Shown: positions 6,569 through 63,633 of the stretch, piece by piece
How positions within the stretch are numbered: the first letter of the stretch is position 1
Layout: every line of letters starts with the position of its first letter
Assembly: GCF_017349355.1 (NCBI RefSeq)
Contig: NZ_JAFMPM010000008.1
Location: 992,001-1,056,000 of the forward strand
Length of the DNA: 64,000 nucleotides
Direction: 5' to 3'
From: Thiothrix fructosivorans
GTDB taxonomy: Bacteria; Pseudomonadota; Gammaproteobacteria; Thiotrichales; Thiotrichaceae
Notes under the pieces: model-generated
What the model saw: the letters and a program-made list of their open reading frames with translations, nothing else
Databases searched by the model: none
Told to the model about the DNA's origin: nothing
Translations under genes and position numbers: made by a program

Positions 6569-6656
6569 GGAGTGGCTCTTGGGTAATGGGGCTAACCGTG
6601 CATGATAGCGGGTTTTGGGGCGGAGTGCTTATCAAATCCCTGAGGGGTGTTAACCT

Positions 6657-7073
6657 TCATTCCCAAGGGTTGATTAATAAAACACCTGTTGGAGAAAAAT
6701 CATCGACATTGCGCGTCATCACATGCAAACCGTAGCGGATGGCGGTTGCGGCAATCAAACCATCAGCCGCTGCGACTATTTTGCCTGATCGTTGGGCATT
6801 GGCGGTGATTTCACCCCAAATACGCACGGTTTCGAGATCGACGGGTAGGATGCGCTCGCCGTATTCCTGCTCCAGTGTTTCCAACCAGTCACGTAAAGCG
6901 CGTTTCCGTTTGCTGTCATCTAATAGCGCAATGCCTTTGGCAATTTCACCCAGAGAAATGACGCTGACGAATAGCTCATCGTCTTCCAGACGTTCTATTG
7001 CTGCACGTACTTGTGGTGGGCAATTTTGCTTGCGTAATTCGGATAACACGCACGTATCCAGCAATACTCTCAC
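6657..7073 (-). CDS. PIN-domain toxin (VapC/FitB-like ribonuclease)
   Basis: A 138-residue PIN-domain protein. The first acidic residue is in LLDTCVLSELRK near residue 6, a middle Glu is in SLGEIAKG, and the third acidic cluster is AADGLIAATA near residue 100, giving the Mg-binding pocket of PIN ribonucleases. The start codon overlaps the end of the antitoxin gene by four bases (ATGA). Family knowledge suggests that it cleaves specific RNAs when freed from its antitoxin. The FitB branch fits the length, but the target is unknown. Confidence 0.88.
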   Translation of the reverse strand: MRVLLDTCVLSELRKQNCPPQVRAAIERLEDDELFVSVISLGEIAKGIALLDDSKRKRALRDWLETLEQEYGERILPVDLETVRIWGEITANAQRSGKIVAAADGLIAATAIRYGLHVMTRNVDDFSPTGVLLINPWE

Positions 7074-7324
7074 AGGTCTACCTCGCGCATCGGTGACTTG
7101 TCACGGGATAGATCTAGCCCTTCCAGACTGGGCGAATGATCCAGTAGGAAACGCTTGAAACTGGTACGTTTGCCTGTCAACCGTTGATATTCCTGAAGGG
7201 ATATGACTACCACGGAACTGTCACGGCGGGAAACCTGTTGTGGTCCTTCGTGCAATGCCCGATTGACCACCTCGCTGAATCTGTTTTTCGCATCTGCTAA
7301 ACGCCATTGCATCATGTTGCTCAC
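7070..7324 (-). CDS. Phd/YefM-type antitoxin
   Basis: An 84-residue partner of the PIN toxin that follows. The N-terminal half, WRLADAKNRFSEVVNRALHEGPQQV, then RRDSSVVVISLQEYQRL, is the Phd/YefM DNA-binding fold. The C-terminal tail (FKRFLLDHSPSLEGLDLSRD) is the usual toxin-binding segment. Antitoxins of this family repress their own promoter, which should lie in 7325-7400. Its stop overlaps the toxin start. Confidence 0.9.
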   Translation of the reverse strand: MSNMMQWRLADAKNRFSEVVNRALHEGPQQVSRRDSSVVVISLQEYQRLTGKRTSFKRFLLDHSPSLEGLDLSRDKSPMREVDL

Positions 7325-7805
7325 CTTTATATCTAGCCAATCTAGCTTGAATTATTCTCGGTTATGTGGGGGATGGCAAGTCTGATAGTTCCGAAGCCTG
7401 CAAAATCCCCTATGAATTCAGTGTATAGAACAAGAGTAATGCAGATGATGGCATTGGCAAGACAACTGGCTTACCTGAGCGTTGAGGCGTATCTCGCGGG
7501 GGAGCACCGTTACCCCCGATGTTGTGGTGGTGTGCGATGAACAATTTCTGGATGACTATTCGACCGAATCCCCGGTGCTGATTGTGGAAGTGTTGTTCAA
7601 AGCTACCCGCCAGCGTGATCGGCAAGTTAAACGGCTGGAGTATTTGCAGTTGCCCAGTTTGCAGGAATACATGCTGATTGAGCAGGATACGGTAGAGGTC
7701 GAAGTTTTCCGCCGTAGCGATAGCTGGCGACCTTCGTATTATTATTGGGGGGATATGGTGGTGCTGGAATCGGTTGGGTTGAGTTTGAGTGTGGAAAGTA
7801 TTTAT

Positions 7806-9039
7806 CAGTAATCGCGTAAAACCTCGTCCTTCAGGACGGGGATATAAGCGTCTTCGGCTACCTCTGATGAAGAGTCATCCATTCAGTAGTTTTTTGCCGT
7901 AATACCGCTACAATCTACCTCATGAAACCCATCATCGCCACCCTGAAAACGCTCAAAGTCCGCATCCGCGACAAACACGCGCCCGTGCTAAAGCAGTGGG
8001 CGTTCGAGTGTAATCAGGTATGGAACGAAGCCAACGCTATTACGGCAGAATACAGCTACATAGCAGTGCCAGAAGTCGGCTACCTCAGAAATAATTTCAC
8101 CGACTTCGACCTCGCCAAGAGCCAAGCGGCATTCAAGAAAGCACGCGGCTTCACTCTCCACTCGCAAACCGTCCAAGAAGTGACCGAAGCCCACGCCAAA
8201 GCGCGAAAGCAATTCAAGAAAGATAAGCTACGCTGGCGGGTGTCTGGCGGTAGTCGGCGCTCGTTGGGCTGGATTCCGTTCAAATCCGGTGCAGCCGTTT
8301 GGAAAGATGGGCAAGTTCGCTACAACAAGCACTATTTCAAGGTGTGGGATAGCTACGGCTTGTCACAATACGCCTTCCGTTCCGGCTCATTCACCGAGGA
8401 TTCCCGTGGGCGCTGGTATTTCAATGTGGTGGTACAAGTCCCCGTTGTTGAAGCCATCGGGCGCGGTGAAGTCGGCATTGACCTTGGCTTAAAAGACTAC
8501 GCCACCTGTAGCAATGGCGAGAAACTTCAAGCAAATCAATTCTACCGCAACGCCCAAAAACAATTGGGTATTGCCCAACGTGCCAACAAAAAACGGCGCG
8601 TCAAGGCTATCCATGCCAAAGTCAAAAACCGTAGAGCCGATGCTATCCACCAGTTCACCACCAAATTGGTGCGTGAGCATTCATTAATCGTTGTCGGCAA
8701 CGTCAGCAGTAAAGCCTTAATCAAAACCAAAATGGCGAAAAGCGTCTTGGACGCAGGCTGGTTCATGCTGAAAACACAACTTGATGCAAAATCGAAAGCG
8801 ATGCAAGGCGTGTTTCTGGAAGTCAACGAAGCGTACAGTACCCAAGCCTGTTCGTGTTGCGGAAGTATTTCTGTCAACAGTCCGAAAGGTAGAGTAGGAC
8901 TTGGAATAAGAGAATGGACTTGTCCCGACTGTGGGTCATTGCATGACAGAGATGTCAATGCAGCTAAGAACATTCTCGCGGCAGGACATTGCCGTCTCGC
9001 AGGAGGAATCCCCGTCTTTTAGGGCGGGGAGGATGTCAA
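7806..9039 (+). mobile_element. IS200/IS605-type (IS1341-like) element carrying tnpB only
   Basis: The boundaries come from the interrupted Uma2 frame. The element starts after TTTAT (7801-7805) and ends with ATGTCAA at 9039. The left end holds a hairpin CCTCGTCCTTCAGGACGGGG at 7822-7841. The right end has a matching subterminal hairpin CCCCGTCTTTTAGGGCGGGG (9010-9029). There is no target duplication and no tnpA, as expected for a non-autonomous peel-and-paste element. The right end should also encode the guide RNA used by TnpB, with the guide starting at 9040. A relative with the same right end lies at 47942-49414. Confidence 0.88.
7922..9022 (+). CDS. tnpB: TnpB, RNA-guided nuclease of an IS200/IS605-type element
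   Basis: A 366-residue TnpB. The RuvC-I motif is GIDLGLKDYATC near residue 182. The zinc ribbon is CSCCGS...CPDCGS near residues 310-340, and the RuvC-III motif is DRDVNAAKNIL. The usual RuvC-II glutamate is not where expected: the strand reads LIVVGNVSSKAL. A Glu in EVNEAYSTQACS, just before the zinc ribbon, may replace it, as in TnpBs with a rearranged catalytic site. TnpB cuts DNA next to the element's target motif under guidance of an RNA from the right end and so helps to retain the element. The start at 7922 lies inside the element, 116 bases from its left end. Confidence 0.92.
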   Translation: MKPIIATLKTLKVRIRDKHAPVLKQWAFECNQVWNEANAITAEYSYIAVPEVGYLRNNFTDFDLAKSQAAFKKARGFTLHSQTVQEVTEAHAKARKQFKKDKLRWRVSGGSRRSLGWIPFKSGAAVWKDGQVRYNKHYFKVWDSYGLSQYAFRSGSFTEDSRGRWYFNVVVQVPVVEAIGRGEVGIDLGLKDYATCSNGEKLQANQFYRNAQKQLGIAQRANKKRRVKAIHAKVKNRRADAIHQFTTKLVREHSLIVVGNVSSKALIKTKMAKSVLDAGWFMLKTQLDAKSKAMQGVFLEVNEAYSTQACSCCGSISVNSPKGRVGLGIREWTCPDCGSLHDRDVNAAKNILAAGHCRLAGGIPVF

Positions 9040-53899: not shown

Positions 53900-55132
53900 A
53901 TGAACCAGAAGTGGTTACATTGGTTGCCGATAGGATTATTGCTCGCCGTAGTGTTATTCGGTTACAGCTTCACTGTAGATACCGCGTTTGATGCATGGAA
54001 GCAGCAATTTCGTCAGGTTGCCATAGCGGAAGGTATTCACGTTGAAACCGTGGATAATGCTTTGCGCGGCCTATTGCCTGACAGTAAAGTGTTGCGTCTC
54101 GAAGCCCATCAACCCGAATTCACCAAAACCGTCTGGGAATACCTCGAAACTGCTGCATCGCCTGAACGCATCGCCAAGGGGCAAAGCCTCTTGCACGATT
54201 ACGCGCCACTGTTAACCCAAATCCACGCAAAATATGGCGTACAACCCGAATACCTATTGGCGGTGTGGGGGCTAGAAAGCAATTTCGGTAACCATACGGG
54301 GCGTTACGGTATTGTGCGCTCATTAGCGACGTTGGCATATGCTGGTGAGGTTGAACGGCGGGATTTTTGGCAAAAGCAATTACTCGCAACCTTACGAATT
54401 CTGCAACAAGGCGATATGCCGCCCGTTTCTATGCAAGGGTCATGGGCAGGTGCTATTGGGCATACGCAGTTTATTCCCACCACCTTTGAGTCCTATGCGG
54501 TTGATTTTGATGGCGATGGCAGACGTGATTTGGTAAACAGCATTCCTGACGCACTGGCTTCAACCGCTAACTACTTGGCAAGTTCTGGCTGGGAACGCGA
54601 TCAGCCGTGGGGTTTTGAAGTACGTTTGCCTGCGAATTTTGATTGGTCGCAAGCGGATGTGGATTTCTGGTTACCGTTAAATATCTGGGGCAAGATTGCG
54701 GGCGTCACTGCCGTCAATGGGCAGGCGTTGGATAGCAGCACGAGCAATGCGTTTGTGTTGCTGCCTGCGGGTTATCGAGGGCCAGCGTTTTTGGCGTTAC
54801 GCAACTTCGATGCGATTCTCAAGTACAACAATGCGCAGAACTATGCGCTCGCCGTCGGTTATTTGGGTGATCGTATCCAAGGCAAACCGCCGCTGTTGGC
54901 AACGTGGCCTACGGAGGAGTTGCCGTTGAGCCATGATCAGAAGTCCGAGTTGCAGGCATTGCTTACCTCGGCGGGTTACAGCACGGATGGGGTAGACGGC
55001 AAATTGGGACCGAATACCCGTTCAGCATTACGGCGCTGGCAACAGGAGGCGGGTTTCCCCGCCGATGGCTACGCGACCTTGCAACAGTTGGACGTGTTAC
55101 GTCAGCGCATCGCCGCCTCAACTCCCCGCTAA
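53900..55132 (+). CDS. Lytic murein transglycosylase, MltB family with peptidoglycan-binding domain
   Basis: A 410-residue enzyme that cleaves peptidoglycan glycan strands to give 1,6-anhydromuropeptides. The N-terminal membrane segment (WLPIGLLLAVVLFGYSF) is a signal anchor. The catalytic Glu126 is in LLAVWGLESNFGNHTGRYG. The SLT_2 core continues with SWAGAIGHTQFIPTTFESYA and DFDGDGRRDL. A PG_binding_1 domain closes the protein (LLTSAGYSTDGVDGKLGPNT followed by RSALRRWQ). Its 3' end overlaps that of the convergent SWIM gene by 15 bases. Confidence 0.92.
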   Translation: MNQKWLHWLPIGLLLAVVLFGYSFTVDTAFDAWKQQFRQVAIAEGIHVETVDNALRGLLPDSKVLRLEAHQPEFTKTVWEYLETAASPERIAKGQSLLHDYAPLLTQIHAKYGVQPEYLLAVWGLESNFGNHTGRYGIVRSLATLAYAGEVERRDFWQKQLLATLRILQQGDMPPVSMQGSWAGAIGHTQFIPTTFESYAVDFDGDGRRDLVNSIPDALASTANYLASSGWERDQPWGFEVRLPANFDWSQADVDFWLPLNIWGKIAGVTAVNGQALDSSTSNAFVLLPAGYRGPAFLALRNFDAILKYNNAQNYALAVGYLGDRIQGKPPLLATWPTEELPLSHDQKSELQALLTSAGYSTDGVDGKLGPNTRSALRRWQQEAGFPADGYATLQQLDVLRQRIAASTPR

Positions 55133-56749
55133 CCGCACTGCCAGCATGTGCTCACACGGCCCTTGATTCAGCTTGTTCTGAATATAGAAATGGCAAGAAC
55201 ACCGTGCCTCCACCAGCCGCATATCCGCATCCAGCGTAATCTCCGGCTGGTACGTGTGCGCATTGTCGATCACTTCACCACGCACTAACTGCCGTCCGTT
55301 TTGCTGCGCTTCCCGCGCCACCACCGTTACCAAACCCGCCTTACGGAAATTATCCGCCTTGGCTTCGCGTTCATTGCTAAAACGCAGCTTATCCATCGGC
55401 AACGGGTCTTTGCTGAGTTCACGGATGCGGTACACATCCTTATCCATGTCATACAACACCCGACCGTATTGTGAATAAATCCCCAGCGCGGATTTCACCG
55501 TCAGCACATCCAAGCCCAGACGCAATGCCAGCGAAGTCGCACTTTCCTGCCAAGTGGTTTGCAAGGCTGCAAATACCTGTTCCGCCGTGACGCTATCGAC
55601 CTCTCCTCGCGGAGCCATCAAATCGAAATTACCCATGCGCGAAAAGTCATTGGCACTCCAACCCGATAAGCCCAAGGTGAAGGTCATGTGTTCCATTTCC
55701 GCGACCCAGAAACTCGGTAAACCCGAACCCAACAGACTCACGCGGAAATGCTTCACGATGGGCAACAAACGTTCCAGTATAAACAAGCGCCGCCGTCCCC
55801 AAATCCGCACTTCCTGCGCCGCATTGCCCGTGTAAATACTGCGCGGACACGTCAAGGTTTCACCCCACGGATCAAACTTCACTTGAATCGGTTGATCCGG
55901 TGTCAGGCAAAACCGCAAGGAACGCGGCCCGGTTTTTTCCTTATGCCGCTTCAAAAACAGCAGGATATTGTACATATCCATCGGGTGCAGATTGAACTGC
56001 GTAAACGGTAAACTCATCGCCGAACTGACTTGCAGGAAACCGCGCACCCAACTGTCCGGCAGGTCGATTTTCTCTTCCTTGAAGTCATCACTCAGGTCAG
56101 TTTTTACCTCAAAGCCCGACGGATCAATCACAAACTCGGTGCGTTTGTAATCGCGGATTCTCTGAAATTCCTGATACAACGCGTGCGAATAGTCGATATT
56201 GGTCGTGCCGTAGGCGTGTTCGCGCACATGTTGGAACACTTCGTAGCGGCAGCTCAGTTTGCCGTAACTGGATTCGTCCTGCGAAAAGCATTCAAAGAAA
56301 ATGCTATCGGGGTGAACCGTGATTACTGGATCAAGCACATACCACGCGTCAATATCGTTTTTGTATAAATACTGGAAATACTTGGAACGTGCAGTGTAGA
56401 ACGGCGACAAAACGGCACTTTCGGCGTGTTGCACTTCGCGCATTTGCTGGCGTAATTCATCCAGTTGCGTTTTAATCTGCCCCTGTTTTGCCATGGCTTC
56501 TGCTAAGAACACATCCTCTTGCGCTTTCAACCACGCCTTGTAATCGGATTTGTCTGTGGGCTGAAAGCTCATATCCGACACTACCACCTGATGCAGCGCA
56601 GACATGGCTTCGCGGAAGGGAATATGTTGCCCCAAATCCGCTGCAAAAAACGTCGGGTTACGCAATGTATCCGGCACGAAGGACATAGTCGTTTCACGGC
56701 TAGTGTTCGAGACTTGCGAGTTGCCGTTATATTTTCTGGAAAACTCCAT
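55118..56749 (-). CDS. SWIM zinc-finger protein of a type XIII-like retron (WHSWIM)
   Basis: A 543-residue protein, third gene of the retron operon. The C-terminus holds a SWIM zinc finger, C517-x-C519 ... C532-x-H534 (EARCSCHFYIQNKLNQGPCE, then HMLAVR). SWIM fingers bind DNA or protein. The segment TTWQESATSLALRLGLDVLT, then VKSALGIYSQYGRVLYDMD, may be the winged helix. An in-frame start at residue 22 (MSFVPDTLRN) is also possible. The ATG at 56749 overlaps the stop of the preceding gene by one base, so translation is coupled. It is presumably part of the retron effector with the WGR/ARM-like protein. Confidence 0.82.
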   Translation of the reverse strand: MEFSRKYNGNSQVSNTSRETTMSFVPDTLRNPTFFAADLGQHIPFREAMSALHQVVVSDMSFQPTDKSDYKAWLKAQEDVFLAEAMAKQGQIKTQLDELRQQMREVQHAESAVLSPFYTARSKYFQYLYKNDIDAWYVLDPVITVHPDSIFFECFSQDESSYGKLSCRYEVFQHVREHAYGTTNIDYSHALYQEFQRIRDYKRTEFVIDPSGFEVKTDLSDDFKEEKIDLPDSWVRGFLQVSSAMSLPFTQFNLHPMDMYNILLFLKRHKEKTGPRSLRFCLTPDQPIQVKFDPWGETLTCPRSIYTGNAAQEVRIWGRRRLFILERLLPIVKHFRVSLLGSGLPSFWVAEMEHMTFTLGLSGWSANDFSRMGNFDLMAPRGEVDSVTAEQVFAALQTTWQESATSLALRLGLDVLTVKSALGIYSQYGRVLYDMDKDVYRIRELSKDPLPMDKLRFSNEREAKADNFRKAGLVTVVAREAQQNGRQLVRGEVIDNAHTYQPEITLDADMRLVEARCSCHFYIQNKLNQGPCEHMLAVRLAGS

Positions 56750-59700
56750 CAGAAAGCCCTCACTGCGGGTGCGATCACGCGCACTGGCGTTTGTTGGATG
56801 CCGTAGCGGTTTTGCAATTCAAACAAGGTCTTGATGTAACGCGCTTTATCGGCAATTACGCGGCTCAGGGATTGGTCGGTGAACAAGGTCGCTACCATGC
56901 GTGCCACTTGCTCATCCTTGCCGGATTCGGTGAATAGGAAGGCAATCACCCGATCTTTCACCAAACGCCCACGATTGACTTGCGACAACACGGTATTGAA
57001 ATAGCCTTGTAATTTGAGGATGGTGTCGGGCTTGCCACTGGCGTATTGCTGCAAGAAATTCGACACGAACAATTGCACGTTGTTGGCAGGGTGCTGGCTG
57101 AGTTGCAGCAAATAGGTTTCGCCTTCGCCATGTTCAAAGCCACGCAACACCAGTTCGCGCCCAAATTGTTGCACATCGTGGTAGACCTGATCACACACCG
57201 CTACCACGCGTTCGCTTGTCCAAAAGTCCGTTTCAAATGCCGTAAACAGGGCAATGGCTTGAGTGCGGGTATCGTCCCAACGGTTATCCAAAATCCGCAC
57301 GGCTTCGGCGAATTGCTCCGTCACCCGTGCAGGATCAGCTTGCAACGCTGCCATTGCCCACGTCCGCACTTGCAAGGTGGGAATTTTGGTCAACATCGCC
57401 AACTGCTTGATCGAAAATGCATCGGCAGGGTGGGCAGACAAAATGATTGCCCCCGCCCGTTCCGCCAATTTGCTTTTTGCGGTGAGCAACCGCCACAGTA
57501 AGTTTTGATCAATTTCGGCATGAATCGGTGCAACCGCTTGCACAATCGCCAGCATATCCTCGCTGTAACCGTCGACAGGTTCGGCTTTGAACAGCACGGG
57601 CAAAATGTGCGCGAAAATGTCCTTCTGGAAATCGGCATCTTGAACCGACAACACCGCCAGCCGCGCACCACGCCGCAATTCAGCATTTTCATCGGTCAGC
57701 GCATTGAACAGCAGTACGCGGTATTCGCGTTTTTCGGCATCGCTTAACTTGCCAATCAGTGCAATGCCCAAGACTTGCAGCGCAGGTTCGGGACGAGCCA
57801 ATAACAGCGGCAACAGCGTATGGTTGTTGGGCATCGCGTACACGTAATTCTTGGCGAACAACTGCACATCATCATGCGGCGAAAGCAGCAAATCCAACAA
57901 CAAATCGGGGTTTCCCGCAAAATGCGCCGGTGTCAGATTCGCCAAACCGTGATGGCGGATGGCGGCAAACTGCGCGTTCAACAGTGCGAATACCACCTCA
58001 GTTTGCGGCAAGCTATCCCGCAAATGTTCCAGTGCCAGCAGCGCGGTATTTTCGTAAGGGCGTACCACCAGTTCCAGCCACGTTGCTTGCGCTTGTTCCT
58101 GCAAGAATGCGGTTTGCGGTTGCAGGCGGCGGAAGGCGAAATCATTCACCATCGCCGCTTTGCAGTGGCGCAAAATGTAGAGCAAATCCTGACCCGCATA
58201 CGCCCACAAGGTAGCAAACGCTTCTGGCTGATTGGCTTCGTTCTGGCGATTTTCCTGCAAAAACCATGCACCCTTATAGTCTTGTTCGTACAAGTGACTG
58301 TGACGGTGCAGGATGAAATTCATTGCCACCAAGTCGGGGAAATGAATCAGTTGTTTCTTCGGGGTGCGTTGTGCAACAGGTGAGGCATCGTCCGCCAACA
58401 CCAAAACTTCCCGCGCCAGTTGCAAATAATCGTTGGGTGAAAACTTACCTAAGTTGCGTAAATGGCGCACGGTACGACGGCGTAAATAGCGTTTGCTTTG
58501 CTGGGTAAAACTGGGGTTTTCTTCGCGCCAGCTTTGCCGTCTGCCATCGTCGGGCGTGGTTTCCAACCGATGATTCAACACGGCTAAGGCTTCGTGATCA
58601 TCCAAAAACTCTGCCATTTTGTAGAGCTTGCGGAACGATGCCGTAAACGATTGGTTGATCGGCGCATGTTGGATAGCAGTGAACGCCAGCGCACGTTTGT
58701 CCGGTTCGACACTGGCAAGCGCGTACAAACTCACCACCTGCTGGCTGTAATGTTCCAGCAATTGTTCTTTGGGTTGAAGGGCTTCTTGGCGCAAATCGGC
58801 AAAACGGTCTTGGAATAAGCGTCGCACATGGTACGCCAGTGAGGTGTCGTATTTGCTGCGAATATCAGCGGCAATGGCGTATGAGTAGCCATGAAACCAG
58901 TGATCAGCATTGAGCGTGGGAATAATGCGGTTGACCACGCCTTCATACGCATCATGGCTGCGTAAGAGGGTGTAGCATTGTTGCAAACGTTCTGCGGACA
59001 CGTCTTGCTGGCGTTTGTAGTAAGCGTTAGCACTCCGGCTCTTATCCAGCAGGGCGTTATAGTGGTAACGCAATACGTCCATAATCGCGGGTTCGAGTTC
59101 CGGCACGGCGGCTTTGTTGGCTTGAATTGTGGCATAACTGGCGGCATCTACACGCAGTTGGATGAAATCCTGATCCGCATCTGCCAACACGGTTTGGCTC
59201 AATGCTTGCTCGACAGCAGCATTCAACCCGTGCCAGTGCAGTACTTGCTGGATGTATTCCCTACCTTCCTTGTTCACACGGTCGAAGGACATCGCGGCGT
59301 AGTGATCGAAGGCTTGGATGGCTTCGATGGCTTGCACGGCATCCAACGTTTGGTCGAATTCCGGCAAGCAACTTTCCGGTGGCTGCCCGATTTGCAAGCA
59401 CGCAAATTGATAGAGATGCGCGGGGATTTTGTCTTGGAGCTGCTGCAATACGGCGAACGCGGCAGGGTCACGGGTGCGCCCCGCTGCCCATGCGATGCTG
59501 TAATACGTCATCGCGTCGTCTTTGGCTTTGGCAGGCAGATTGGCGAGCAGGGCTTGCAGTGCGGCGGTTAGGTCGGGAATGCGCAATTCGCCCGCTTTCC
59601 ACACGCTGCGACTCAGGCGGTAGCCGTCAATCGTAATCGTGTCGCTCTCGGCGAATTTTTGCAGACGTTCGAGGATTTGCTGGTCGCGGCTTTGGGCTTT

Positions 59701-60018
59701 TTTGCCTTTGCAGGGTGCGGTTGTGGGTTGCGCGGCGGCACTTGCGCCGATGGTTTCGCCCGTTACGGGATTGTAGCCCATTAGCACTTGGTAGCCTTTG
59801 TTCATCTTGCTGACCAGCAGGCTATCGGCGACTTTTTTGGCTTTGGCGGAATCCACGGGCGCGGCGGTTTTGCTGCCTTCGGTCAAGGGTTTGCCGGAAC
59901 GTCCGTAGCGGAAATTGACCAAATAGCTGTCATCAGCGGCTTCCACAATGTCAACTTCGTACACTTTGTCGGATGTGCCATCCTGAAAGCGTAGGGTAGT
60001 ACGGCGAATCAGTTTCAT
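56749..60018 (-). CDS. WGR-domain/ARM-like repeat protein of a type XIII-like retron
   Basis: A 1089-residue protein. The first 80 residues are a WGR-type domain (LIRRTTLRFQDGTSDKVYEV, with YGRSG in place of WGR), a module that binds nucleic acid in PARPs and related proteins. The rest is a long series of helical repeats resembling HEAT/ARM repeats (for example AELRRGARLAVLSVQDADFQ and LAMLTKIPTLQVRTWAMAAL). The start overlaps the stop of the reverse transcriptase gene by four bases (ATGA at 60015-60018). The set RT, ARM-like and SWIM protein matches retron type XIII as I recall its definition. Confidence 0.83.
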   Translation of the reverse strand: MKLIRRTTLRFQDGTSDKVYEVDIVEAADDSYLVNFRYGRSGKPLTEGSKTAAPVDSAKAKKVADSLLVSKMNKGYQVLMGYNPVTGETIGASAAAQPTTAPCKGKKAQSRDQQILERLQKFAESDTITIDGYRLSRSVWKAGELRIPDLTAALQALLANLPAKAKDDAMTYYSIAWAAGRTRDPAAFAVLQQLQDKIPAHLYQFACLQIGQPPESCLPEFDQTLDAVQAIEAIQAFDHYAAMSFDRVNKEGREYIQQVLHWHGLNAAVEQALSQTVLADADQDFIQLRVDAASYATIQANKAAVPELEPAIMDVLRYHYNALLDKSRSANAYYKRQQDVSAERLQQCYTLLRSHDAYEGVVNRIIPTLNADHWFHGYSYAIAADIRSKYDTSLAYHVRRLFQDRFADLRQEALQPKEQLLEHYSQQVVSLYALASVEPDKRALAFTAIQHAPINQSFTASFRKLYKMAEFLDDHEALAVLNHRLETTPDDGRRQSWREENPSFTQQSKRYLRRRTVRHLRNLGKFSPNDYLQLAREVLVLADDASPVAQRTPKKQLIHFPDLVAMNFILHRHSHLYEQDYKGAWFLQENRQNEANQPEAFATLWAYAGQDLLYILRHCKAAMVNDFAFRRLQPQTAFLQEQAQATWLELVVRPYENTALLALEHLRDSLPQTEVVFALLNAQFAAIRHHGLANLTPAHFAGNPDLLLDLLLSPHDDVQLFAKNYVYAMPNNHTLLPLLLARPEPALQVLGIALIGKLSDAEKREYRVLLFNALTDENAELRRGARLAVLSVQDADFQKDIFAHILPVLFKAEPVDGYSEDMLAIVQAVAPIHAEIDQNLLWRLLTAKSKLAERAGAIILSAHPADAFSIKQLAMLTKIPTLQVRTWAMAALQADPARVTEQFAEAVRILDNRWDDTRTQAIALFTAFETDFWTSERVVAVCDQVYHDVQQFGRELVLRGFEHGEGETYLLQLSQHPANNVQLFVSNFLQQYASGKPDTILKLQGYFNTVLSQVNRGRLVKDRVIAFLFTESGKDEQVARMVATLFTDQSLSRVIADKARYIKTLFELQNRYGIQQTPVRVIAPAVRAF

Positions 60019-61574
60019 GATTTACCTCCGATGATTTGTTGGACTTCGATAATCACATCGCGGTGTTGAATCGTGTCATCCAGCGTCGGTGCTGGCTTGA
60101 TGGCTGCAATGCGCATCGCGTCCAGTGGCAACTTGCCTTGCGCGGCGCGTTCGCGGAATTGCGTGGTGCTGAACTTCATTGCCACATTGGGTTTGCCGTG
60201 TTTTTGCTGGATAGCGGCAATCTGTTGCAGAAATTGGCTGCCTTTTTCCGGGTTCACCATGCGCACGTAATGGGCGTAACTTTTGATGCTTGCCAGAATG
60301 TTGTAACCATTGCCCCAGCTTTTGTCGCCATAGCCGTCTTTGTCGATTTGGAATAGCAGGGCGCGAAATTGCTTGAGCTTTTTGTTATCAACCGACAGGT
60401 GTTGGTTGACCACAATGCCAGTGACTTCCTGCTTGCTGCCCTGTTTCATGATGCGGGTTTTGTCGGGGTGGACGTTGAAACCTTCCGCTGTCACCGTGGC
60501 TTTTGCGCCGTATAACAGGGCGGGAACGGCGGCAGTATCCGTGCCGGAAAAGGTCAAATCGTCGGCGTAACGGGTGTAGGCAAAACCGTGTTTGGTCGCC
60601 AATCCTTGCAAGCGCTTGTCCAGCGTGCGGCAAATCACGTTGCTCAACGCGGGGCTGGTGGGTGCGCCTTGCGGCAGGCGGCGGCTAGATGAATTCAGGT
60701 AATAGCGTTGCCCATCCATTTCCACGGTTTGCGTTTCGGGTTCGGAACACAGCAGCGCGAGCAGGGACGCGACCTCGTGGTTGTAGCCGAGTTGCGCGAA
60801 TGTGCCTTTGATACGCGGGTAAGTGACGGTGGGGAAAAAGTCTTTCAGATCCATATTGATCACGACTTTTTGCGCCAGATGCGGCTGGGCATTGCTGACA
60901 ATGCTGCGCCCTGTGACGAAACCGTGTGCTTGTTCGGTGAGTTCCAGCGGTTGCAGAATATTGTCTAGCACCCAGTATTGCAGGCGTTTCAGGCGCGGCA
61001 TCGGCGCGGAAATCAGGCGTGTGCCGCCGGACTTTTTCTGCATCGCAAAATGTTGGTAGTGGCACACCCGCGAGACTTGGTTGCTGTAGGTCAGAAAGCG
61101 CAATTCGTTGAGAGTAATGCCCATGCCTGCCGCGAGTTCGGCGGCATTGGAATAGACGGGTAAACCTAGGCTGTTGAGGCGTTCTGCATCGGACACATCA
61201 GCGGCGGCGGAGGGTTTGAATCCGGCAGCGTCACCGAGGTAATGGATGTGGTTTTGCTGCTTTTCGTGCCAAGCCTGAGCGCGTTGGTAACGTTCGACTT
61301 CGCGTTTAACTTTGGTATCAATGCGTTGCTGGCGAGCCGCTGCCATGCGTTCTTGGTGGATGGCTTTGAGCGCGGCTTTCGGGTCGGTAATTTGCGACGA
61401 TAAGGCATTGATTTGGCGTTGCAAGTCACCACGGCGTTTGATTAGGGATGCTGCCAGTGTTGGCTGTGCGTCTTCCTTCCAGTAGCCCAAGCGTTGCATC
61501 TCGCTGAGGATGTATTCATCCTTGGAGGTTTCTTTAATCTTGTCGTAGAGTTGCTGGCGGGTGAGTTGGCTCAT
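60015..61574 (-). CDS. Retron reverse transcriptase
   Basis: A 519-residue reverse transcriptase. An N-terminal extension of about 170 residues is helical. The polymerase core shows the catalytic Asp242 in VINMDLKDFFPTV, RRLPQGAPTSPALSN near 298-312 and Y336-A-D-D339 in YTRYADDLTFSG. Retron-specific features are the NAxxH motif (N228-A-Q-P-H232) in region X and the VTG triplet (384-386) in the C-terminal part. It makes multicopy single-stranded DNA from the RNA encoded just upstream. No maturase or DGR-type features were seen. Confidence 0.93.
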   Translation of the reverse strand: MSQLTRQQLYDKIKETSKDEYILSEMQRLGYWKEDAQPTLAASLIKRRGDLQRQINALSSQITDPKAALKAIHQERMAAARQQRIDTKVKREVERYQRAQAWHEKQQNHIHYLGDAAGFKPSAAADVSDAERLNSLGLPVYSNAAELAAGMGITLNELRFLTYSNQVSRVCHYQHFAMQKKSGGTRLISAPMPRLKRLQYWVLDNILQPLELTEQAHGFVTGRSIVSNAQPHLAQKVVINMDLKDFFPTVTYPRIKGTFAQLGYNHEVASLLALLCSEPETQTVEMDGQRYYLNSSSRRLPQGAPTSPALSNVICRTLDKRLQGLATKHGFAYTRYADDLTFSGTDTAAVPALLYGAKATVTAEGFNVHPDKTRIMKQGSKQEVTGIVVNQHLSVDNKKLKQFRALLFQIDKDGYGDKSWGNGYNILASIKSYAHYVRMVNPEKGSQFLQQIAAIQQKHGKPNVAMKFSTTQFRERAAQGKLPLDAMRIAAIKPAPTLDDTIQHRDVIIEVQQIIGGKS

Positions 61575-61606
61575 GCAAATCCCTGATTTTTAGTTATTTT
61601 TAATGA

Positions 61607-61631
61607 AATAGCCGACACGAGGTCGGCTATT
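61607..61631 (-). terminator. Hairpin between retron RNA and reverse transcriptase
   Basis: A perfect 10-bp inverted repeat (61607-61616 and 61622-61631, AATAGCCGAC/GTCGGCTATT) lies after the a2 end of the retron RNA and 33 bases before the RT start codon. On the minus strand it is followed by a T-containing stretch (TTCATT). It could be an attenuator that separates RNA and protein production, or simply a stabilising 3' hairpin. Confidence 0.55.
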
Positions 61632-61638
61632 AGGCAGT

Positions 61639-61854
61639 AAATCACCTTCGTTCATCCAGAAGATCAGCTTGCTACACTCGATGCGGGGACGGCCTACTGT
61701 GCGATATTGGTTTCCTAGAAACGCAATGCAATTCGCACAGTAGGCCAGTCCCCGCCCTAGTAAAGAGCAAGCTGATGTCGCTTTGACAGGCTTTATGCGC
61801 GAACAGCGATCCACTGTTCAACAGGCAAGGGTTCATCTACTGTGGAAGTAATTT
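61639..61854 (-). ncRNA. Retron msr-msd RNA
   Basis: Read on the minus strand, the elements of a retron RNA appear in the correct order before the RT gene. The outer ends pair as a1 (61854-61844, AAATTACTTCC) with a2 (61649-61639, GAAGGTGATTT), ten of eleven positions counting two G-U pairs. An msr stem-loop follows (61819-61801, GAACAG/CTGTTC). Next comes a long msd hairpin: an outer 11-bp stem (61776-61766 with 61673-61663) and an inner stem of about 22 bp with one bulge (61755-61733 with 61704-61683). The branch G could not be assigned with confidence. Confidence 0.8.
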
Positions 61855-61880
61855 AATAGATTTTGTTTATTTGGTCAAAA

Positions 61881-63221
61881 TCAGGCGGATGAACGGGCAT
61901 TGCGCATATCCCTGACATTCTGTTCAGCCTCGTGCTGTAATGCGCTGGATAATTCAGGGTTTTCCGCTAACCATGCTTCCGGCCATTGGATTTTATCAGC
62001 AGTAAAGCGCATGGGATCAGCGGCAGTGGGGCTGAGTACATCTTCTTCAAACAGATCAAAAACACCATTATCGAACGGTAAACCACTGGCGGCTTTGCGT
62101 AAGGCGAAACGTTCGCGCACGCCATTCGATGCATTGACTAGGGAACGGTGGTAGCAATAGGGATTGTTACCGCGCCGATCAAAGAATACGTGGGCTGTCC
62201 AATTGCATGCGCCCCGGCACAATTCTGCAAAATCACAGGTTTTGCAGAAGCCCCATAGGTGATCCGTGGCTGCGGGTGTTCCGGCACTCAGGTTGAAGGT
62301 CAGTTCGTCGCGTTCGGTGAGGATGGTAGCGAGTGAAGCCTCGCGGATAGTCCCGCCAGAATAAGCAGCCGTCGGCAGCGATGGGCAACCTTTGATCGTG
62401 CCATCCGCTTCAATGCCGATAGTGCGCAAGCCTGCAAAACAGCCCTGCCAGAATGACCATTCTGTAGGTTTACCAAAACCCCGCAACATGCGCTCATACG
62501 GGCCGTAGTAACCAAAGTTATTGCCGGGTTGCACGTAAAACCCTTGTGGATAGCCGCGCTTGGCGAGGTTGGCTATCAAGGGATGGAACACTAACAGTTC
62601 GTCGGGTTGCAAGAGGATGTCAGCATTATCCGCCGCGTTGCCCATCGGTACAGTCATTTGGATTTGCCAGCCTTTCGCACCCGCATCCACTAATGCCTGA
62701 AACAGCAGCGGAAATTCGGGGGCAGACAGGCGGTTGACTTGTGTGTTTGCGCCAAACGTCAGCCCTGCTTGTTGCAAGTGCCCCATCGTTTCAAAGGCGT
62801 ATTTCCACGAGCCGATTTTGCCGCGCAAACGGTCGTGGGTGTTACGCATTCCATCGACAGAAACCGATACTTGATTGATACCCGCTGCTTTCATGCGTTG
62901 TGCGGTGACTAAATTGATGCCATAACCGCCCGTGGTCATGGAGCAAATCATGCCGCACTTGACGATTTCAGCCGCAATTTCCAACCAGTCGCTGCGCAAG
63001 AAGGCTTCGCCACCAATTAGCGTGACTTCGGTGATGCCGACATCAGCCATTTGATGCACCAAATCCAGCGCTTCAGCCGTGGATAGCTCATTGACTCGTG
63101 CATCACCCGCCCGCGAGCCGCAGTGACTACAGGCAAGATTACATTTCAGGGTAATCTCCCAGACGGCGTAACAACTGCGTGTGCCGGGGGCATATTGTGT
63201 GATTGTTGGGGTGTCGGTCAT
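61881..63221 (-). CDS. Radical SAM/SPASM peptide-modifying enzyme
   Basis: A 446-residue enzyme. The radical SAM cluster motif CxxxCxxC is in LKCNLACSHCGSRAGD. The GGE-type strand is VTLIGGEAFLRSDW. The C-terminal SPASM region contains Cys residues in WQGCFAGLRTIGIEADGTIK, GCPSL, GFCKTCDFAELCRGACNW and NPYCYH, enough for two auxiliary iron-sulfur clusters. The start is set at ATG 63221 (MTDTPTITQYAPG), with AAGGT upstream. The longer frame from 63254 would overlap the preceding gene. The closeness to a repeat-bearing small protein suggests that it modifies that peptide. Confidence 0.88.
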   Translation of the reverse strand: MTDTPTITQYAPGTRSCYAVWEITLKCNLACSHCGSRAGDARVNELSTAEALDLVHQMADVGITEVTLIGGEAFLRSDWLEIAAEIVKCGMICSMTTGGYGINLVTAQRMKAAGINQVSVSVDGMRNTHDRLRGKIGSWKYAFETMGHLQQAGLTFGANTQVNRLSAPEFPLLFQALVDAGAKGWQIQMTVPMGNAADNADILLQPDELLVFHPLIANLAKRGYPQGFYVQPGNNFGYYGPYERMLRGFGKPTEWSFWQGCFAGLRTIGIEADGTIKGCPSLPTAAYSGGTIREASLATILTERDELTFNLSAGTPAATDHLWGFCKTCDFAELCRGACNWTAHVFFDRRGNNPYCYHRSLVNASNGVRERFALRKAASGLPFDNGVFDLFEEDVLSPTAADPMRFTADKIQWPEAWLAENPELSSALQHEAEQNVRDMRNARSSA

Positions 63222-63231
63222 GGTGTGAACC

Positions 63232-63633
63232 TTAGATGGTTGTTGGGGTGTCACCGGATTGCTCGGCAGGTGCTCGAATGCCGCCGTAAACCGGTTGAAC
63301 GCCAGTTGGTTCGCCGGGAAGTATCACGCCGTAAACCGGTTGTACATCGGGTGGGGTCGGTTCATCGGGGACAATTGCGCCGTAGACTGGCTGTACATTC
63401 GGCGGCGTGGGTTCTTTATCAAATTGCGCGAGCAAGCGTTGGATCAGGTTCATGATATTCTGAAAAATATCTTTTGACTGATTATTGCCTTGTGGAGCGC
63501 ACGATTGGTTTTTTGCCCCGTTAGAAAAATTGTCCAAATGCTGGGCGGCATTGCGCACCTGTTGGTTTTGATTGCCGCCACTTCTGGGGAGTACCGGCGA
63601 GGTGTTGGCTTTGTTTCTGTTCTGAATATCCAT
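63232..63633 (-). CDS. Candidate multi-core RiPP precursor with VQPVYG repeats
   Basis: A 133-residue protein whose stop lies 10 bases before the radical SAM gene. The first 75 or so residues (MDIQNRNKANTSPVLPRSGG, Asn/Gln-rich, then a helix FQNIMNLIQRLLAQFDK) look like a leader. Three repeats follow: EPTPPNVQPVYGAIVPD, EPTPPDVQPVYGVILPG and EPTGVQPVYGGIRAP. The conserved core VQPVYG keeps an aromatic Tyr next to Gly, as in substrates of cyclophane-forming radical SAM enzymes, but the chemistry cannot be deduced. The match to a precursor is by layout only. I know no named family with this repeat. Confidence 0.65.
   Translation of the reverse strand: MDIQNRNKANTSPVLPRSGGNQNQQVRNAAQHLDNFSNGAKNQSCAPQGNNQSKDIFQNIMNLIQRLLAQFDKEPTPPNVQPVYGAIVPDEPTPPDVQPVYGVILPGEPTGVQPVYGGIRAPAEQSGDTPTTI

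Follow-up and report, generated by a model that had tools for sequence, protein, structure and literature searches.

The nearest characterised relatives of the enzyme described here are the spliceases of the PlpX family, whose recognition motif is X-Tyr-Gly. In the excerpts of the literature on which we draw, the Plp system of Pleurocapsa sp. PCC 7319 consists of PlpA, PlpX and PlpY; PlpX, together with PlpY, excises tyramine at X-Y-G (PMC10533398, PMC11002830, PMC10373908), and the sites named for PlpXY are MYG and LYG (PMC10533398). PlpX is placed there in an uncharacterised SPASM subclass, with precursors that carry Nif11 or nitrile-hydratase leaders (PMC11002830), which agrees with the name of family TIGR04103, 'nif11-class peptide radical SAM maturase 3'. 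According to the excerpted reports, PlpY was labelled a truncated RRE and was later deemed too small for the RRE fold, and besides Plp, 27 further splicease systems have been reported as characterised and 939 as predicted (PMC10533398, PMC11002830, PMC10373908, PMC9415263, PMC12710340, PMC8326336). The ketoamide group of spliceotides served as a protease-inhibitor moiety, as described in the same source text (PMC11002830).

The DNA analysed here (the window) is a stretch of 64,000 nucleotides from Thiothrix fructosivorans. A preliminary description had pointed to a small three-repeat protein whose stop lies 10 bases before the start of a SPASM enzyme, and this arrangement was confirmed. The precursor gene (63232..63633, minus strand) encodes 133 aa, which ORF and repeat analysis divides into a leader and three X-Tyr-Gly cores. 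The enzyme gene (61881..63221, minus strand), with its ATG at 63221 and its end at 61881, encodes a radical SAM/SPASM protein of 446 aa, a putative PlpX-like splicease. The precursor stop (63232) and the enzyme ATG are separated by a gap of 10 nt (63222-63231); an alternative GTG start of the enzyme at 63254 would run into the precursor ORF. Core 1 is VQPVYGAI (63373..63396), with V-Y-G as the predicted splice site, X-Y-G being the splicease motif; repeat analysis of the precursor ORF places core 2, VQPVYGVI, at 63322..63345 and core 3, VQPVYGGI, at 63277..63300, all three on the minus strand. The Q residues of the QPVYG units are precursor residues 81, 98, and 113. When the residues of the precursor were shuffled, any hexamer was present three times in 1 of 200,000 shuffles.

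The enzyme (E <= 1e-80) is present in 12 of the 63 genomes of the order. A precursor homologue (E <= 1e-4) occurs in 11 of the 63, all of them within the enzyme-bearing 12 and always adjoining the enzyme; in the twelfth (G015, locus L158) a diverged precursor was found by hand in the same place, and no precursor match at E <= 1e-4 was found in the other 51 genomes. Because enzyme and precursor co-occur, adjacent to each other, across genomes of the order, the pair is not a product of chance. The 12 enzyme-bearing genomes form one family in the order search and are called Thiotrichaceae here, with the proviso that NCBI places Thiofilum in Thiofilaceae. The earlier reading of the small protein as a RiPP-like precursor, made up of a leader and several cores and paired with a maturase of the radical SAM/SPASM type, is upheld: in none of the 63 genomes was the repeat protein found without a maturase, and in all 12 Thiotrichaceae loci a precursor stands beside the enzyme. 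As had also been anticipated, the number of repeats varies while the unit stays, with three VYG sites in the window and 2-5 X-Tyr-Gly sites in each of the 12 precursors. A class sample of 369 genomes gave 3 enzyme matches, all from this order, and a phylum sample of 398 genomes gave the window genome and two relatives at 44% identity. Over a range of 7 kb, or less where a locus is shorter, only precursor and enzyme are common to at least 3 of the 12 loci (ORFs of at least 50 aa, BLASTP 1e-8; the remaining clusters were ORFs overlapping the enzyme gene), and no protease or transporter is common to the 12. Among named relatives, the enzyme of Thiothrix caldifontis DSM 21228 comes closest, at 94% identity. 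Between the window and T. caldifontis, 22 of 87 precursor codons differ synonymously and 16 non-synonymously, as against 117 and 32 of 447 in the enzyme; judged by these codon differences, the precursor is under weaker constraint than the enzyme.

Directly downstream of the enzyme lie the genes of a type XIII retron (55118-61574, minus strand), which encode a reverse transcriptase (60015-61574, RT_XIII 600.7 bits), a WGR protein (56749-60018, WGR_XIII 789.5 bits) and a SWIM protein (55118-56749, SWIM_XIII 762.8 bits), each on the minus strand. RT_XIII is found in 24 of the 63 genomes of the order and stands beside the enzyme in only 2 of the 12 enzyme genomes, the window genome and G049, which are close relatives; several of the other genomes are fragmented. 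In G050 and G056 enzyme and reverse transcriptase lie more than 1 million bases apart on one contig. The retron was rejected as a part of the peptide system, since the linkage is limited to the two nearest species and the genes are unlinked in G050 and G056. The spacer between enzyme and reverse transcriptase (61575-61880, minus strand) folds far more stably than shuffled versions of itself (-115.8 kcal/mol, z -7.84, equalled by 0 of 100 shuffles), contains a long hairpin and is a candidate for the msr-msd RNA of the retron; its only Rfam match, to a microRNA family at 26.2 bits against a gathering score of 75, was taken as chance. The RT_XIII matches of the order (L114-L140) come in two sizes, about 520-660 aa and about 430-441 aa, of which the shorter score lower, and G042 and G050 have one of each size group. 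Six RT_XIII matches were considered as decayed genes and rejected, their frames ending at most 1-2 codons from the match, most likely at ordinary terminal stops. On the other side, upstream of the precursor and just past the end of the window, locus L113 contains (6590-8240) two consecutive ORFs whose products both have RLVRSG and a single further residue at their C-terminal end; judged by eye, they seem to resemble DUF1566 proteins.

In an NCBIfam scan the window enzyme scores 700.4 bits against TIGR04103, under the curated cut-off of 725, and 390.9 bits against the second-best family, TIGR03913. We take TIGR04103 to be PlpX's InterPro entry, IPR026482. Three other Thiotrichaceae enzymes reach 693, 643, and 610 bits against TIGR04103, and two cyanobacterial enzymes 840 and 805. 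By these scores the Thiotrichaceae enzymes narrowly miss the curated family and are remote from all other NCBIfam families. A viperin assignment was rejected, as PADLOC pVip matches reach only 52 bits, against 700 for TIGR04103, and are attributed to the radical SAM core that both have in common. A search of genome contigs gave 203 enzyme relatives, of which the best 80 were kept, a sample that favours near relatives and has 123 further relatives outside it. It comprises 79 distinct loci, 6 of them Thiotrichaceae-like (L005-L010) and 73 cyanobacterial (L011-L083), and the window enzyme is 64-70% identical to the enzymes of these 73. Spread by phages and plasmids was considered and rejected: the search of viral contigs gave 18 loci with partial matches of 24-30%, and the plasmid search gave one Nostoc enzyme at 65% identity and five enzymes at 45-47%.

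The enzyme tree has 86 rows, namely 72 cyanobacterial enzymes (L024 was omitted, having no full-length row), 12 Thiotrichaceae enzymes, and two TIGR03913-type outgroups. The cyanobacterial enzymes lie on one side of a branch with an SH-aLRT of 100, the Thiotrichaceae lie beside them and are not resolved as one clade, and the window enzyme groups with the 72 cyanobacterial enzymes against the two outgroups, which are too distant (end branches 2.7-2.8) for safe rooting.

The CX3CX2C motif of the enzyme (residues 27-34; 63120..63143, minus strand) is invariant in 34 aligned sequences, as are C261, C279, C326, C329, C335, C339, and C356 of the SPASM region (62154..62441, minus strand). The Pfam SPASM match is weak, at 20.4 bits for a cut-off of 21.5. 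The only PDB sequence matches that pass 1e-5 are SkfB, PqqE, and two entries of cytosylglucuronate decarboxylase, and the best structural matches of the enzyme model are SkfB, PqqE, BlsE, and anSME.

The cores of the precursors can be compared with those of the cyanobacterial loci. From residue 46 onward, the 12 Thiotrichaceae precursors contain 43 X-Y-G sites, of which 37 are VYG, 4 IYG, and 2 LYG; QP precedes 31 of the 43, and 43 of the 45 Tyr in this part are in YG. For the cyanobacteria, a precursor was taken as an ORF with a GG-type leader end plus X-Y-G, located within -2.6 to +3.5 kb of the enzyme. This simple rule finds 104 precursors in 67 of the 73 cyanobacterial loci among the best 80 of 203 relatives, with 1-4 sites each and 187 in total. 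The X residue is L in 78 and M in 53 of the 187 sites, and the commonest flanks are QP before the site (97 of 187) and VV (63) or VI (46) after it (109 of 187). Among the 6 loci that the rule missed, L024, L037, and L067 have upstream X-Y-G ORFs, L029 and L059 start near a contig end, and in L055 no X-Y-G precursor was found. Read against these sequences, VQPVYG is the common splicease core with Val replacing Leu or Met. The preliminary description, which knew of no described class with this core, is not supported in this respect, since the PlpX splicease family has the motif X-Tyr-Gly and similar QP-X-YG-V-[IV] cores occur upstream of the cyanobacterial enzymes. Compared with Plp, which is known here by its excerpted description, the Thiothrix pair is alike in its radical SAM/SPASM enzyme and X-Y-G sites and differs in having Val before Tyr, where Plp has Met or Leu, in a leader that has no Nif11 match, and in the lack of a separate PlpY.

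The leader (residues 1-79; 63397..63633, minus strand) is polar and Gln/Asn-rich, with predicted helices at residues 22-38 and 52-71. In profile searches with leader and precursor, neither Pfam nor NCBIfam had a match at E <= 0.001; at E <= 1 NCBIfam still gave none, and Pfam gave one chance-level match (0.14). The Pfam Nif11 profile matches neither the window precursor nor that of L006, and it does match a control cyanobacterial precursor (L017) at 26.7 bits for a cut-off of 23.8. The AlphaFold model of the precursor is of low confidence (mean pLDDT 54) and too poor for a fold search. The GG-type leaders found by the rule in 67 of 73 cyanobacterial loci set those loci apart from the system described here. 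All 12 Thiotrichaceae precursors carry an [LF]PR motif within the first ~20 residues of the leader, followed by A-x(3)-[LIM], which in the window precursor falls inside the predicted helix 22-38; [LF]PR was found in 0 of the 104 GG-type cyanobacterial leaders. The window motif, VLPR (leader residues 14-17; 63583..63594, minus strand), is by alignments and profile comparison a candidate counterpart of the LLPR of PlpY-like proteins.

These PlpY-like proteins are encoded by a small ORF of 46-87 aa that each of the 73 cyanobacterial loci (best 80 of 203 relatives) has within ~0.4 kb after the enzyme gene, and that is taken as PlpY from its place and size. Its invariant residues are L-P-R, W, K, and L, in a set of which 59 of the 73 were picked by a pattern demanding PR and W and the other 14 through an HMM built from those 59. 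In the 12 Thiotrichaceae loci the HMM found no PlpY-like gene, with nothing better than E 2.5. Searched against the 12 whole genomes, the profile gave a best E of 0.0079 (G050) and a next of 0.13 (G045), whereas four cyanobacterial controls gave 7e-24 to 1e-19. The G050 match, 0.44 Mb from the enzyme, is an open stretch of 35 codons that contains LLPRxAW but ends short of the helix; both matches, being LPRxAW in short helix-less open stretches away from the enzyme, were read as chance and rejected as PlpY. At the sensitivity used, no plausible separate PlpY-like gene was found in the 12 Thiotrichaceae genomes. The leader itself was aligned by hhalign with the PlpY-like proteins from the LPR to the end of the helix (P 0.0046, probability 7.6%), a score equalled by 1 of 700 column permutations but by 12 of 400 permutations of 4-column blocks. 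With a second PlpY-like set of 23 rows the alignment is confined to the LPR stretch (P 0.0056). When 20,241 ORFs were searched with the plain HMM, the list included the two nearest precursors at E ~4.4, within noise, and none of the other ten. The leader appears to resemble PlpY-like proteins weakly, which is a suggestive lead, not proof.

Taken with the gene pair and its conserved cores, the enzyme family makes the splicing reading well supported by homology, and a two-gene spliceotide system is, in our judgement, quite probable; that the role of the PlpY-like helper is provided in cis is a suggestive reading. Some points count against this explanation: the window enzyme lies under the TIGR04103 cut-off, the X residue is mostly Val here versus Leu or Met in the cyanobacteria, the likeness of leader and PlpY-like proteins is weak, the precursor is under weaker constraint than the enzyme, the loci have no protease or transporter in common, and there is no separate gene for PlpY, with which the characterised splicease works; should PlpY be indispensable, the enzyme may not splice. 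The score and the missing PlpY would also suit a degenerate or inactive relative in which PlpY and then splicing itself have been lost. Such a loss is nonetheless highly improbable with radical SAM and SPASM-region cysteines invariant in the aligned sequences, X-Y-G cores in all 12 precursors, and synonymous differences well above non-synonymous ones in the enzyme of the two nearest species (117 versus 32). A different chemistry had been suggested in the preliminary description, in which the Tyr-Gly of each repeat is a crosslink site and the peptide loses 2 Da per repeat. Crosslinking of aromatic residues is known from other SPASM enzyme families, and each repeat here contains one conserved aromatic residue, so that an enzyme joining the Tyr of each repeat by a C-C, ether or cyclophane link (-2.016 Da per repeat) would define a new multi-core crosslinked RiPP. 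Yet the nearest characterised family is a splicease with an X-Y-G motif, and beside the Tyr there is no conserved aromatic or Cys partner: a single Cys is present in 5 of the 12 Thiotrichaceae precursors and is located in the leader, and Trp occurs from residue 46 on in only 4 of the 12. The crosslink proposal is thus unsupported, and we consider it very unlikely. As an X-Tyr-Gly splicease is the nearest characterised family, the change to be expected is the excision of tyramine, with an alpha-keto-beta-amino acid in the product and the loss of C8H9NO, predicted as -135.07 Da, per repeat.

If the enzyme splices, the helper could reside in either partner. After W417 the enzyme carries a C-terminal extension of 29 aa plus stop (61881..61970, minus strand), modelled as a helix over residues 424-445. 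The residues after the last conserved W number 29-51 in 12 of 12 Thiotrichaceae enzymes versus 4-21 in cyanobacterial ones (63 of 72 enzymes that could be measured, among the best 80 of 203 relatives). The cyanobacterial plpY-like ORF sits just downstream of the enzyme, the same end at which a fusion to the 3' end of the enzyme gene would have placed this helix, so splicing might hold with the extra enzyme helix, not the leader, as the helper. The extension, however, has no sequence similarity to PlpY-like proteins (hhalign P 0.62) and lacks their LPR and W; a fused PlpY was rejected on sequence grounds, and we regard the enzyme helix as sole helper as unlikely. The alternative is that LPR plus helix are carried as the N-terminus of the precursor, and that one enzyme and one substrate suffice to splice out tyramine at several sites and so to yield multi-headed Pro-Val ketoamide protease inhibitors. 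We hold this fuller proposal only tentatively, as possible but rather doubtful, and the evidence for the cis helper alone is suggestive.

More distant relatives, 44-46% identical to the window enzyme, are the TIGR03913 'GDL motif peptide-associated' enzymes of Azospirillum plasmids, G542 and G758, together with an Aureibacter enzyme that is similar to them; the two scanned members, which are the 44% relatives from the phylum sample, score higher against TIGR03913 than against TIGR04103. The plasmid enzymes of Azospirillum (L166, annotated as TIGR03913-type) and Aureibacter (L163, placed by similarity), at 45-46% identity, are adjoined by two or three DUF1843 peptides located upstream. Close to their N-terminus, some of these have PYG and, after it, a segment of the type G-D-L-x-x-M-K; L161 has a peptide similar to them. 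They differ from the Thiothrix precursor in that the site is near the N-terminus, helices come after it, and there is no repeat; it is possible that they are further splicease substrates. Kinship of the DUF1843 helix with PlpY or with the leader was considered and rejected; by hhalign the helix gives P 0.013 against PlpY (short end piece only) and 0.53 against the leader. No PlpY-like ORF was found in L161-L164 and L166 (best E 2.4; Nostoc control L165, 5e-14). Within the loci sampled, a separate PlpY is a trait of the cyanobacterial branch.

Returning to the two-gene spliceotide reading, we infer the following course from homology. The enzyme would splice each V-Y-G, most likely after the leader has docked, with the part of PlpY probably played by the LPR-helix in the leader, by the additional helix at the C-terminus of the enzyme, or by both. 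The tail of the product, unstructured and rich in Pro, would carry Pro-Val-ketoamide groups, three at most, and such a multi-headed electrophilic peptide would most simply inhibit serine or cysteine proteases in a reversible manner. Since classic inhibitors of elastase include peptidyl Pro-Val ketones, elastase-like proteases are the first-guess target, given Pro in P2 and Val in P1. The locus would represent known chemistry in a reduced arrangement that is probably new. No paper with both 'spliceotide' and 'Thiothrix' was found in a search that did not extend to Scott et al. 2022 (Chem) and Richter et al. 2024; the status as a variant is provisional because these two may already describe Thiothrix systems or the cis helix.

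Tyramine splicing is among the few known routes to beta-amino acids and reactive ketoamides in genetically encoded proteins, and it has been used for protein labelling. If the reading is true, a natural pair of enzyme and substrate that needs no separate PlpY would make splicing possible with very few parts and would offer a direct test of the role of PlpY. The chemistry would then also be present in filamentous sulfur bacteria, and, if the ketoamide reading holds, their products would be candidate protease inhibitors with a Pro-Val preference.
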